Shown here: one piece after another, positions 59,949 to 64,000 of the stretch
How positions within the stretch are numbered: the stretch's first letter is position 1
Layout of the letters: the number at the start of each line of letters is the position of its first letter
DNA from: Gracilibacillus orientalis
Lineage (GTDB): Bacteria; Bacillota; Bacilli; Bacillales; Amphibacillaceae
Reading direction: 5' to 3'
Length of the DNA stretch: 64,000 bases
Assembly: GCF_900114645.1 (NCBI RefSeq)
Contig: NZ_FOTR01000001.1
Span: 62,001-126,000 of the forward strand
Program-made: the position numbers and the translations under genes
The notes under the pieces: model-generated
What the model was told of the DNA's origin: nothing
Databases searched by the model: none
What the model saw: the letters and a program-made list of their open reading frames with translations, nothing else

Positions 59949-60755
59949 ATGGATATCAATAAAGAGATTAAAAAATTAGAAAGTGTTAATTTAGAAAAAC
60001 CTCAACGCGTATTTAGTATGTACTTAAACACTGATCAATCTGATCCTGAACAACAAGGTAGCAAATGGAAACTGCATGTAAAAAACGGATTGAATAGTTT
60101 TGAAAATTATCTGCAAAAAGATGGTGATAGTGAAGAAAAACGAAATTATTGGGCAGTGAAAGAAATGGTTGAGAAATATATGCATGATAATGAACACAAC
60201 TTGGCAAAAAGTGTTGTGATTTTCGCAACAGGTGATAAATCAATTTGGTTTGCTGAAAAATTTCAAATGCCTGTTGAAACAGAATTCTGTTGGGAAGAAA
60301 CACCAAAATTAGACCAGATTAAAGAAATGATCCATCAGTTTCCGGAAACAGGTATCATCCTTACTCAGAAAGAATCAATAAAAATATTGGACACTGAACT
60401 AGGGACCTTAAAAGATTCTAGATTTTATGAATTAGACCTTGATACGGAAGATTGGAGGGAACATACAGGACCACATCGAGCTCAGCCATCGATGGGCTCT
60501 GGTGGAAAGAATACAAAACAAGAACAATTCGAAGCACGTTTTGAAGCAAACCGCTATCGTTGGTATAAAAGTATCGCTACGACAATTGACAAATTAGCTA
60601 AAAATAAAGAATGGAAAAAAATTATTATAGTTGGTCATAAGGAAGAAGCGGAAGATTTATCTGGTAATATGAATAAAGAAATAACTAAAGTGATTCCTAA
60701 GAACATGTTAGAACAAGAGAAAATGAAGGTAATCAATGAGGCTGTCTTCAGCTAA
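59949..60755 (+). CDS. aeRF1/VLRF1-type release-factor-like protein
   Basis: The 268-residue protein matches bacterial aeRF1-like proteins of the VLRF1 group: RVFSMYLNTDQSDPEQQGSKW near 20-40, VVIFATGDKSIWFAEKFQMP near 90 and HTGPHRAQPSMGSGGKNTKQEQFEARFEANRYRWYK near 172. The GGQ of true release factors is not present; the loop reads GSGGKNTKQEQ. Relatives act on stalled ribosomes or peptidyl-tRNA; activity here is inference. A terminator follows. Confidence 0.75.
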   Translation: MDINKEIKKLESVNLEKPQRVFSMYLNTDQSDPEQQGSKWKLHVKNGLNSFENYLQKDGDSEEKRNYWAVKEMVEKYMHDNEHNLAKSVVIFATGDKSIWFAEKFQMPVETEFCWEETPKLDQIKEMIHQFPETGIILTQKESIKILDTELGTLKDSRFYELDLDTEDWREHTGPHRAQPSMGSGGKNTKQEQFEARFEANRYRWYKSIATTIDKLAKNKEWKKIIIVGHKEEAEDLSGNMNKEITKVIPKNMLEQEKMKVINEAVFS

Positions 60756-60760
60756 AAAAT

Positions 60761-60785
60761 CGAGCTCGTAAGCTCGTTTTTTTAT
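60761..60785 (+). terminator. terminator of the aeRF1-like gene
   Basis: CGAGCT/AGCTCG with a loop of CGTA and a run of seven T follows the stop by a few bases. Confidence 0.9.
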
Positions 60786-60797
60786 ATCTTGTAAAAC

Positions 60798-61982
60798 TTA
60801 AGTTGAAGCAGATTTTTTCTTTTTTCTAATGGAATAAATCAATAAACTTATCATTAGAATAAATTGAGCAACGATTACCAGTGCATCCCAGAAGAATGGA
60901 TTCCCAACCGGGTTCATTAAGTGTGGTAATGTATTAACCATTAAATAAATCATTTGCGGAATGAAATAAATTATAAATAAACTCATTGTTAATAAAACCC
61001 CGATGAAGGTAAATACACCATACAATTTAACTATTTTTTCTTCCCCTTCAAAAGTAGTGGTAGTTTTATCTACTTTGACAAATGGTACCCACTTTGCCAA
61101 GTAATTTTTTCCGTTTTCCATTAAATTATAGCAACCTGTTACATTTTCTACTAGGTAATATAAATCTGTCTTCATATAAAAACAGCACTGATAAATGGTT
61201 TTGATTAATATATCAAGAACCACTAAGGATAATATTCCGTTAATAATGAACTGATCAATAGGTACTATCAGTTTAATTAATAAAACTATAGTTAAGATCA
61301 CTTGATCTATGAACATACCACCTAAAAATAATAGATTCCTTTGTTTAGAGGGAAGTTTCCAAGCTGCCGTTAGGTCTGTTTCTACAACTATTAAAAACAA
61401 ACGATTACCTATTTGAACATTTGCCGGTAAGTCATAGGATCTTATAGCTAAGATATGACCAAATTCATGCAAAGTGATTAAAATTAATGATAACAGCATA
61501 TAAGTCAAGATGTTTAATACCATAGAATCGAATAAAAATATGTCTGTATAAGTAGGTAGCAATTCGGTGTAGATAGCAAAGATACTAAGATTGAATACAA
61601 TAAGTATAATAAATACGTGGACAGTAAGTCGATTAAAAAATAATGCGGCAAAAGTAGATGAAATGCTTGTAAAACCTGTTGCTGACTGATCTTTTGTACG
61701 AGTGATTATTTCCTTACCGTTGACCTCTTTCACAAGACCTAAATCGATTAACTGCTGTAGAAAATCTAATAAATCAACCTCTTCTTCTTTGTAATTTTCA
61801 ATCAATTGTTCTTCAATAGTTGCCAACGATTCATGATTATTAATTTTCTCTATTGCCTCTATGCAAATTTCGGGCATTTCAAAAAATTCACCAGAATTAG
61901 GGTTTTCTACTATAAAATGATTCCTATCTTTTCTAATTTTTAGAGGTTGTAAGCTTATTTGAGATTCTAAGCTTATTTTCAT
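60798..61982 (-). CDS. M50-type membrane zinc metalloprotease with PqqD-like N-terminus
   Basis: The 394-residue protein has a soluble PqqD/RRE-like N-terminal domain (about 15-95: NPNSGEFFEMPEICIEAIEKI, then DLLDFLQQLIDLGLV), then about eight membrane segments. The M50 zinc motif HEFGH is at 172-176 and a third ligand is likely Asp273 in MKTDLYYL. Similar proteins, such as YydH, occur with ribosomally made peptides and are thought to cut them. A 21-residue Cys/Trp peptide gene lies 70 bases upstream in the same orientation, separated by a hairpin. AGGGGGGGA precedes the start. Peptide processing or export is inferred. Confidence 0.82.
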   Translation of the reverse strand: MKISLESQISLQPLKIRKDRNHFIVENPNSGEFFEMPEICIEAIEKINNHESLATIEEQLIENYKEEEVDLLDFLQQLIDLGLVKEVNGKEIITRTKDQSATGFTSISSTFAALFFNRLTVHVFIILIVFNLSIFAIYTELLPTYTDIFLFDSMVLNILTYMLLSLILITLHEFGHILAIRSYDLPANVQIGNRLFLIVVETDLTAAWKLPSKQRNLLFLGGMFIDQVILTIVLLIKLIVPIDQFIINGILSLVVLDILIKTIYQCCFYMKTDLYYLVENVTGCYNLMENGKNYLAKWVPFVKVDKTTTTFEGEEKIVKLYGVFTFIGVLLTMSLFIIYFIPQMIYLMVNTLPHLMNPVGNPFFWDALVIVAQFILMISLLIYSIRKKKKSAST

Positions 61983-62010
61983 TATTGTCCCCCCCTGTAC
62001 TTAGTCCTAA

Positions 62011-62039
62011 AAGAAAAGGATGCTATTAAACTAGCATCC
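62011..62039 (-). terminator. attenuating hairpin between peptide and protease genes
   Basis: GGATGCTA/TAGCATCC with a six-base loop is followed by TTTTCTTTTA on the minus strand. It lies 13 bases after the peptide stop and 29 before the protease start, so it should limit protease relative to peptide transcripts. Confidence 0.75.
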
Positions 62040-62051
62040 AACAGACGAAAA

Positions 62052-62117
62052 TTACATAAAAATGCACCACCAACAATGATCAGTAGCACGTAATTTGTTT
62101 AATTTTTTTACCTTCAT
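62052..62117 (-). CDS. 21-residue Cys/Trp-rich candidate precursor peptide
   Basis: An ATG eight bases behind GGGAGG opens a 21-codon frame. The N-terminal half is basic (MKVKKLNKLR) and the C-terminal half is ATDHCWWCIFM, with two cysteines around a Trp pair. The gene lies between the HD-GYP gene (18 bases) and the PqqD-like/M50 metalloprotease gene, all leftward, with an attenuating hairpin behind it. This is the layout of a ribosomal peptide with its maturation protease. It is too short for usual gene callers. No known peptide family is recognised; no radical SAM or other modifying enzyme is seen here. Confidence 0.65.
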   Translation of the reverse strand: MKVKKLNKLRATDHCWWCIFM

Positions 62118-62135
62118 TATTTAAACCTCCCTTCA

Positions 62136-63308
62136 TTAGTAGTATTTATTTAATAATTCATGGTAATTATTATGATATTCTACCCAATTAGGATAAACCT
62201 CTTGGAAAATGGTAATTAGCTCAGGATCAAATTGGGTTCCACTTCCATTCAGCAAATTTTGATAAGCCATTTCTATAGGTAGTGCAGCACGATACGACCT
62301 TGAAGAAGTCATTGCATCAAAAGCATCTGCAATCGATACTACTCTTGCCAAATAATCAATTTGATTTCCTGTTAGACCATCAGGGTAACCCTTACCATCC
62401 CATCTTTCGTGGTGATGCTTTATCACATTAATGTTTTCGGCCATTCCTTCAACTTCTTTGATCGCTTGTGCACCTACCGTAGGATGTGTTTTAATTATCT
62501 CAAATTCTTGATCTGTTAATTTATCAGGTTTGGTTAAAATCGAATCTGGTATATTAACTTTTCCAATATCATGTAATAAACAAGAATAATAGAAAGTTTT
62601 TAACTCTTCATCAGCAAATTCTCCTGTGGCCTTAGCTAATGTTAGGGCATACTCTGCAACTCTTTCACTATGACCTCGTGTATAAGGATCCTTTAATTCT
62701 AATGTTGTAATAACACCTTTCACAATTCCTTCCATTTGCTTATCGTAAGAACGTTGAATAGCATTGACATAGCCAATAAAACGATACAAAAGAATCCAAG
62801 CAACAATTGAAAATATTATAACTAGAAACAAGGGTATTGCAACAACTGAGTCTGTCAAAATTATCCCCAATATTAAATATTTAAAAGCAGTTCCTAACAA
62901 GACTAAGTAAAAAAAACGTTTATTCACAAATATCGGTGAAAACATGATTATTACTAGTTCAATTATATTTCCAGTTGCATATGTTTGATTAGTTCCATAG
63001 TAAGTGAAAGTATCTAAAATAAGATCTGAAAATGTTAATACTATAAAAAATATATATTTTACAGGAGATGGGTTCCTTTTTTTTAGATAATAGTAGCTAA
63101 TAGGAAGAAGTCCAAATATGACAAAATACTTGATGTAAGAAAGGCCATCCTTATCTAAACCAGGTTCTGCTTCCCATGGTATTGCTGGAATTAACACATA
63201 ATAAATTATTTCGTAAGCAAAGTAAATAACGTAAACCAACCACAAAAACCATACAGTTGTTCTTTTTTCTTCATTTAGTAGATTCGAGTACCTATATGTA
63301 TTTTTCAT
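62136..63308 (-). CDS. HD-GYP domain c-di-GMP phosphodiesterase-like protein
   Basis: The 390-residue protein has about six to seven N-terminal membrane segments (about 20-185) and a C-terminal HD-GYP domain: HSERVAEYALTLAKA near 215, LLHDIGKVNIPD near 244, HHHERWDGKGYPDGL near 290-304 and SIADAFDAMTS. All HD-GYP metal and signature residues are present, so c-di-GMP hydrolysis is likely. The start used follows AAAGGG. The small peptide gene starts 18 bases after its stop, so both may share a transcript. Confidence 0.88.
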   Translation of the reverse strand: MKNTYRYSNLLNEEKRTTVWFLWLVYVIYFAYEIIYYVLIPAIPWEAEPGLDKDGLSYIKYFVIFGLLPISYYYLKKRNPSPVKYIFFIVLTFSDLILDTFTYYGTNQTYATGNIIELVIIMFSPIFVNKRFFYLVLLGTAFKYLILGIILTDSVVAIPLFLVIIFSIVAWILLYRFIGYVNAIQRSYDKQMEGIVKGVITTLELKDPYTRGHSERVAEYALTLAKATGEFADEELKTFYYSCLLHDIGKVNIPDSILTKPDKLTDQEFEIIKTHPTVGAQAIKEVEGMAENINVIKHHHERWDGKGYPDGLTGNQIDYLARVVSIADAFDAMTSSRSYRAALPIEMAYQNLLNGSGTQFDPELITIFQEVYPNWVEYHNNYHELLNKYY

Positions 63309-63586
63309 TGCTAAACCCTTTCTAATCATATTATACTATACCAAAAACAATATTTCTACAATTTTCCTGTGTTATTTTAAATAAATTTACATATTCTATT
63401 TAAAGTATAAGCTGTATGTCGAGACCTGTAAATAAATCCATAAAGTAACTAAGTATTTCTTCATATTACTATAGTAATACCAAAAAAAGAGATGACCATC
63501 ATTGCATGTTAAAAAATATGACAAACGAATCATATTCCTTTGGATATTACTATAAAATGATTAATAGAATGGAAGGAGGAAGCAAA

Positions 63587-64000
63587 ATGAAGGAAGAATT
63601 TATGAAATATGCTTTAAAAATTGCTTACGAGAATATAGAAAAGACAAATGGTGGCCCATTTGGTGCTGTGGTTGTTAAAGACGATAAGGTTGTAGGTAAA
63701 GGGACAAATGTCGTTACAACGACTAATGACCCATCGGCACATGCTGAAATCAGTGCGATAAGAGATGCTTGCAAGAACCTTAACGATTATCAATTAACAA
63801 ATTGTGAGATTTATACAAGTTGTGAACCATGTCCGATGTGTCTGGGTGCAATTTATTGGGCTCGTCCTAAAGCGGTTTATTATTTCAATACAAGAGAAGA
63901 AGCAGCCAAAATCGGATTCGATGATCAATACATATATGATCAAATTGCGTTGAATGTCGAAGCAAGAAAGTTAATAATGAAGAAACTGGATTTTAATAGT
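63587..64000 (+). CDS. guaD: guanine deaminase (3' end beyond window)
   Basis: The frame starts at an ATG behind GGAAGGAGG and is open for 138 codons to the window edge. It is a CDA-fold deaminase: NGGPFGAVVVKD near 21, zinc motif SAHAEISAIRDA near 51 and TSCEPCPMCLGAIYWARPKAVYYF near 77. The size and the TREEAAKIGFDD segment fit Bacillus GuaD (about 156 aa), which converts guanine to xanthine; the final residues are cut off. Confidence 0.88.
   Translation, partial: MKEEFMKYALKIAYENIEKTNGGPFGAVVVKDDKVVGKGTNVVTTTNDPSAHAEISAIRDACKNLNDYQLTNCEIYTSCEPCPMCLGAIYWARPKAVYYFNTREEAAKIGFDDQYIYDQIALNVEARKLIMKKLDFNS

Follow-up and report, generated by a model that had tools for sequence, protein, structure and literature searches.

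Peptide signalling systems of the Agr and ComQXPA type combine a peptide with a conserved leader and a variable core, a membrane protease or modifying enzyme, and a receptor that co-varies with the signal. In the DSF/RpfC/RpfG system, a cell–cell fatty-acid signal of Gram-negative bacteria is passed through a two-component relay to an HD-GYP phosphodiesterase. To our knowledge, no ligand has been assigned to MASE12, which is an orphan sensor domain. For the epipeptide EpeX of B. subtilis, cleavage and export are attributed tentatively to the M50 protein EpeP (PMC10885120), which serves as a model for the M50 step proposed below.

The window, i.e., the whole stretch of 64,000 nucleotides that was analysed, sits in a 4.6 Mb genome of 29 contigs and carries on its reverse strand three genes in the order MASE12–HD-GYP gene, 21-codon CWWC peptide frame, and M50/PqqD-like gene (Table 1). 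From comparative sequence data, we consider it probable that these genes constitute a peptide signalling module in which a pheromone made up of CWWC and tail is matured by the M50 protein and read by MASE12 receptors. An initial annotation had drawn attention to the RBS, the ATG, and the 21-codon frame, all of which were recovered at 62052–62117 with the translation MKVKKLNKLRATDHCWWCIFM, 18 nt past the stop codon of the HD-GYP gene. It had also placed a hairpin with a T-tract between peptide and protease, which is present, and an M50 gene next to the peptide, which adjoins it indeed but starts after 69 nt and not 70 nt. Absent from that reading were the MASE12 input domain of the HD-GYP protein and the conservation of the three genes as a unit.

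The locus resembles EpeX/EpeP (YydF/YydH), as described in PMC10885120, in joining a short ribosomal peptide to an M50 intramembrane protease. In contrast to that system, it features an HD-GYP partner and no conserved radical SAM epimerase or ABC transporter, and it differs from the daptide system in that no daptide genes occur among the clustered neighbours of CWWC loci. Compared with DSF/RpfC/RpfG, the HD-GYP endpoint is shared whereas a peptide signal and a one-protein MASE12–HD-GYP are proposed here. Unlike in Agr and ComQXPA, no AgrB, ComQ, or ComP homologue was seen, and the proposed receptor and output are MASE12 and c-di-GMP hydrolysis, respectively. A ribosomal precursor with leader and core, as expected of a RiPP, is present in the form of a conserved and selected frame; since a neighbour clustering of 70 loci, which covers linked genes only, revealed no modifying enzyme, the module is sorted with peptide signalling rather than with RiPPs in the strict sense. 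Searches of the open-licence literature, with subscription papers and bioRxiv outside their scope, returned nothing on a CWWC peptide/M50/MASE12–HD-GYP system and nothing joining HD-GYP to a signalling peptide, quorum sensing, and Firmicutes. On balance, we lean towards an undescribed class of pheromone, in which MASE12 would recognize the peptide directly, a single protein would couple recognition to c-di-GMP hydrolysis, MASE12 kinases would act as second listeners, and the tails would serve as private codes.

Table 1. Features of the three-gene locus (positions refer to the window).
Feature	Position	Strand	Basis or remark
HD-GYP gene, 390 aa, proposed receptor/effector	62136..63308	(-)	Pfam HD_5 1.6e-35, MASE12 1.1e-34
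MASE12 domain, residues 13-174 of HD-GYP protein	62787..63272	(-)	Pfam profile
HD_5 / HD-GYP catalytic domain, residues 201-364	62217..62708	(-)	Pfam profile
Peptide RBS GGGAGG, 8 nt 5' of ATG	62126..62131	(-)	
CWWC peptide gene, 21 codons plus stop	62052..62117	(-)	Conserved, selected frame
Basic leader MKVKKLNKLRAT, conserved part, proposed target of PqqD-like domain	62082..62117	(-)	
CWWC core	62064..62075	(-)	Exact CWWC in 80/83 loci
Variable tail IFM	62055..62063	(-)	
Hairpin GGATGCTA-GTTTAA-TAGCATCC, then T-rich stretch; probable attenuator	62018..62039	(-)	
M50-type membrane metalloprotease, 394 aa, proposed to mature the peptide	60798..61982	(-)	
PqqD-like (RRE-like) region, residues 27-84 of M50 protein	61731..61904	(-)	Sub-threshold Pfam
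HEFGH metal site, residues 172-176 of M50 protein	61455..61469	(-)	

Conservation and codon-position diversity indicate that the peptide frame is a real gene. It follows the pattern of an RBS and MKIRKLxKxKxT-CWWC-tail. An RBS-preceded MKIRKLKKIKVT-CWWC-tail frame lies ahead of the M50 gene in all 39 loci L032–L070, and 28 of the 29 loci L003–L031 contain the frame within a 400-nt scan; in the remaining one (L018 of genome G064, also L152), the peptide lies 683 nt upstream of the M50 gene, as opposed to 42–95 nt in relatives. The 683-nt gap looks like an inserted stretch. Among the 159 genomes searched in the window's own family, the 36 with a full-length M50 gene are the same 36 that carry the peptide, for which the search was run independently of M50 (matches at E <= 1.1e-8, the next ones at E >= 0.013). 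A 37th family genome, G022, has only M50 fragments and broken HD-GYP pieces, and gave no peptide match. The 397 genomes searched in the order repeat this picture, with 42 genomes harboring this type of M50 (E <= 9.1e-119) and the same 42 harboring the peptide (E <= 9.6e-9). Conservation of the frame beside M50 homologues in related genomes, to which the initial annotation had looked for corroboration, is thus borne out in 36/36 family and 42/42 order genomes. Both searches yielded one strong peptide match per genome, i.e., the peptide is single-copy, and three further carriers (G701, G775, and G799) lie outside the order. All 84 distinct CWWC-type M50 loci contain the frame—83 as detected by a regular expression and one, L177, by eye since its peptide starts with MN and was hence missed—but the genome counts are the unbiased figures because part of the 84-locus set was retrieved using the peptide itself. 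Relatives of the M50 protein occur in Gracilibacillus, Virgibacillus, Aquibacillus, Sporosarcina, Oceanobacillus, Ornithinibacillus, Solibacillus, Neobacillus, and others.

Across 80 loci with standard spacing, nucleotide diversity in leader codons 2–12 amounts to 0.205, 0.093, and 0.469 at the three codon positions, pN/pS is about 0.13–0.23, and pN at the CxxC codons is as low as 0.01–0.04, which points to purifying selection on the frame. A chance frame is ruled out by conservation together with the codon test. None of 27 peptide members matched NCBIfam at E <= 10, and Pfam offers no model for the peptide, two zinc-finger models each matching a single member of the 27 (E 0.022 and 0.037); likewise, Rfam gave no match at E <= 0.5 in 60700–63600. 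The three loci deviating from the exact core carry CWFC, CFWC, and CYWC, one each, and both cysteines are retained in 83/83 loci. The leader is basic, is not a signal peptide, and measures 12 residues in 80/83 loci. In contrast to the leader and CWWC, which hardly vary, the tails are hypervariable (78 distinct ones in 83 loci, 2–9 residues), the second tail residue being aromatic in 63 of the 83. The peptide encoded in the window departs from the usual form by two additional residues ahead of CWWC.

By a strict rule, a hairpin followed by a T-tract is found in 49/80 of the stretches between peptide and protease genes as compared with 8% of mononucleotide shuffles, a count that leaves out three loci with longer gaps; in 52/80, the stem is better than in all 20 near-dinucleotide shuffles of the same stretch. 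A GGRTGY...GCAYCC-type pair occurs in 69/83 loci, several others having different self-complementary stems, and no second copy of the window's exact palindrome occurs in the genome. Judged from its structure, the hairpin is probably an attenuator that would raise peptide output relative to protease.

The residues H172, E173, H176, and D273 (within MKTDLYY) of the M50 protein are invariant in 26 homologues. As is characteristic of M50 proteases, the HExxH motif and a distal aspartate are found in membrane segments, hydrophobic segments being present. The Pfam M50 profile matches 24/26 members at E <= 0.1 and the window protein itself at E 0.11. Of the claims made previously for this protein, the HEFGH site stands, whereas for the PqqD-like N-terminus the Pfam match is weak (E 0.0017 and 19.1 bits, below the cut-off of 23.4). 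The PqqD signal is weak across members as well, with 4/26 at E <= 0.1 and 8/26 weakly matched by the WgkC PqqD model. The best NCBIfam match, to NF041824 (daptide protease), extends over 319 residues (22–340) and scores 24.9 bits, short of the cut-off of 300. NF058609 (YydH/LiaK) matches 6/26 members at E <= 0.1 (best 7.6e-5), the window protein not being among them, and PDB sequences yielded nothing convincingly related to the M50 family (best E 0.31). C266 and C267 were considered as redox partners and dropped since they are near-invariant only and replaced in some members. A mobile element was considered and set aside; a tblastn search of the M50 protein against plasmids returned 27 records, all below 60% identity, the best at about 26% in Streptomyces. 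Other plasmid-borne relatives were seen on Macrococcus and Priestia.

In the HD-GYP protein, H246 D247, H275, H299 H300, and G307-Y308-P309 are invariant in 25 homologues. Both the HD and the GYP motif of c-di-GMP phosphodiesterases are present and c-di-GMP hydrolysis is predicted. The MASE12 and HD-GYP parts are complete in 82/83 loci, L057 being cut by a contig start. When the flanking ORFs of 70 loci (55 distinct) were clustered, with flanks of 4 kb at most of L032–L070 and of 1.5 kb at the majority of the remaining loci, no families besides HD-GYP and M50 proved generally conserved; no conserved immunity, transport, modifying-enzyme, or response-regulator gene emerged. Because the HD-GYP gene is part of the module, the tie to c-di-GMP is stronger than the initial annotation, which had mentioned it as a possibility, supposed. 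A convergent gene of 268 aa at 59949–60755 (+), downstream of the M50 gene, is found in 8/70 loci and lies outside the module.

MASE12 (PF20971) is present in 39/159 family genomes, namely in all 36 with the peptide and in G014, G022, and G069, i.e., in 36/36 peptide genomes versus 3/123 others. In the order, it occurs in 51/397 genomes, comprising 41/42 with the peptide versus 10/355 without (Fisher p 4e-45); in the one peptide genome lacking it, G221, the locus is cut by a contig start. This co-occurrence partly restates the shared operon. A sharper control is provided by the 16 order genomes whose only M50 relatives are of a more distant, ThiF-linked type, in none of which MASE12 was found (0/16). 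The 46 places of MASE12 in the family consist of 36 at the module, one in G069, the broken locus of G022, and 8 kinases, and the MASE12 of the window is the only one found in its genome. In 23/42 order genomes (counted by eye), another MASE12 protein is encoded no more than about 3 kb from the peptide, and 8/8 of those scanned with Pfam are HisKA/HATPase kinases, i.e., the input domain is shared and the output differs. The MASE12 proteins inspected elsewhere than at the module are without exception kinases (19/19), including those of ten order genomes and of G014 that lack a peptide match. These peptide-less kinases speak against strict pairing, and they may be relics, listeners to the peptides of others, or sensors of something else. 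The sporulation kinase KinD is the third or second best score for the kinase parts, far under the cut-off, which leaves a link to sporulation a matter of guesswork.

The variation of the tail follows that of MASE12. In partial Mantel tests across 82 loci, the tail correlates with MASE12, given HD output and M50, at r 0.19–0.20 (p 5e-4), with the HD output at r 0.09–0.12 (p 0.002–0.014), and with M50 at r 0.04–0.08 (p 0.02–0.13). The leader is uncorrelated with MASE12 (-0.05, p 0.79), and its correlation with the HD output is slight (0.13, p 0.044). For 41 disjoint nearest species pairs, the partial r between tail and MASE12 is 0.60 (Spearman 0.56, p 1.6e-4), as against -0.13 for the HD output and -0.12 for M50; the value for MASE12 is 0.56 when squared controls are used (Spearman 0.44, p 0.004). 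If the pairs are formed by M50 alone or by MASE12 alone, the partial r values for MASE12 are 0.51 and 0.63, respectively, and the leader controls in the pair tests range from 0.22 to 0.28 and are not significant. Within MASE12, residues 41–110 co-vary most strongly in pairwise comparison under two of the three pairing schemes. MASE12 is the fastest-changing part (mean distance 0.576; 0.515 for M50 and 0.326 for the remaining part), and part of the co-variation may reflect a better resolution of divergence through its faster evolution. M50 changes nearly as fast, yet the pair tests give no signal for it. Joint change of a variable signal and its receptor, a mark of pheromone systems, is observed here for the tail and the candidate receptor MASE12, subject to this caveat of evolutionary rate.

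The leader can be compared with that of another peptide family. The more distant M50 relatives mentioned above occur as the only type in 16 order genomes and as second copies in G263 and G300, and have a ThiF/E1-like gene beside them in 18/18 loci. Their M50 proteins are homologous (HMM E 1e-51 to 4e-81) and the leaders of their MKI.VKK.EKL..T peptides similar to those of CWWC loci. In contrast to the latter, a ThiF-type adenylyltransferase replaces HD-GYP, the cores read, e.g., FIPYGG, up to four peptides stand in tandem, and MASE12 is absent from the 16 genomes with only this M50 type. Of 17 ThiF loci scanned, 13 contained between one and four short frames, MKIEVKKTEKLKPTFIPYGG being an example. 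When 12 such frames were scored against the CWWC leaders, all ranked above most of their own shuffles, with 0/100 shuffles as good for seven and 1–6/100 for the others. This resemblance suggests that the CWWC leader probably serves for recognition, as the leaders of the ThiF system would. In G069 (L237, 925–2160), a genome without an M50 match, the MASE12–HD-GYP gene is intact and followed by MMARIFSCWWCFFVPKK, complete with RBS and the usual hairpin, in which the leader is lost and the CWWCFFVPKK core kept. This would fit a leader serving the M50 protein and a core serving the sensor; being a single case, it could also represent early decay. The earlier idea of a compact peptide system that relies on leader recognition and M50 processing, lacks a nearby modifying enzyme, and is tied to c-di-GMP is backed by conservation, selection, leader resemblance, and co-occurrence.

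According to the proposed model, translation would yield a pre-peptide composed of a fixed basic leader, the CWWC core, and a species-variable tail, and the hairpin after the peptide gene would lower read-through to keep the peptide in excess over the protease. The PqqD-like N-terminus of the M50 protein would bind the leader, its intramembrane HExxH site would cut near the border between leader and core, and a short CWWC-tail peptide would be released. MASE12 domains would read this peptide outside or within the membrane, as suggested by the co-variation of the tail. The MASE12–HD-GYP protein, whose domains are seen, would then alter c-di-GMP hydrolysis and, where present, the MASE12 histidine kinase would alter phosphorylation.

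The main rival to a released pheromone, which we regard as unlikely, is a membrane-internal regulator, i.e., an unsecreted CWWC peptide that binds MASE12 as a subunit in the same cell and is destroyed by the M50 protein to end the signal. The fixed operon, the co-variation of tail and MASE12, the protease, and the very small hydrophobic core would all fit such a regulator, as would the loss of protease and leader together in G069. However, the leader resembles those of the ThiF-linked peptides, for which a maturation role is likelier, and 78 distinct tails in 83 loci suit a signal between cells better than a private subunit.

An antimicrobial function, with the M50 protein maturing a CWWC bacteriocin and the HD-GYP protein timing its production, is suggested by the role of M50 proteases in the maturation of the epipeptide EpeX (PMC10885120) and by the weak matches of the M50 protein to the daptide and YydH/LiaK protease families. 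We deem it improbable, as the clustered neighbours include no conserved immunity, transport, or modifying gene, the peptide is single-copy, and the tail tracks the sensor domain. The strict conservation of both cysteines (83/83 loci) would also agree with a redox or metal sensor in which they form a disulfide or metal site reporting to the HD-GYP protein, but this very improbable reading leaves the variable tail, its co-variation with MASE12, and the pair of leader and protease unexplained, and the Pfam zinc-finger matches are single and weak (E 0.022, 0.037). A bacteriocin or metal ligand, as considered in the initial annotation, has therefore become less likely in view of the missing conserved immunity or transport gene among the clustered neighbours and the co-variation of the tail with the sensor domain; that interpretation as a whole is partly supported. 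If the pheromone reading holds true, the CWWC peptides would be candidate ligands for the orphan sensor domain MASE12, c-di-GMP would be seen to respond to a peptide signal with no relay in between, and the family would offer dozens of natural pairs of signal and receptor for testing specificity. The standing question of what MASE domains in c-di-GMP enzymes sense would thereby become directly testable. Genes of about 20 codons that fall outside Pfam and NCBIfam models can form the centre of a conserved operon.

In three loci with a different layout (L147, L148, and L149), a ThiF-like gene is followed by an ORF of ~470 aa, the M50 gene, and an ORF of 412–415 aa. The ~470-aa ORF, broken into two frames in L148, resembles an oligopeptide-binding protein by eye, and the short peptide was not found in two scanned loci of this layout. 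The ThiF proteins scanned had no NCBIfam match over the cut-off, and a ThiF/M50 peptide system was not located in print. The ThiF/E1-like and M50 loci L134–L146 and L150, preceded by one to four tandem short peptides with cores like FIPYGG, TANVYGG, and CPGLGSC, look like a peptide-maturation system. The C-terminal GG of ThiF-locus peptides recalls ThiS/MoaD.
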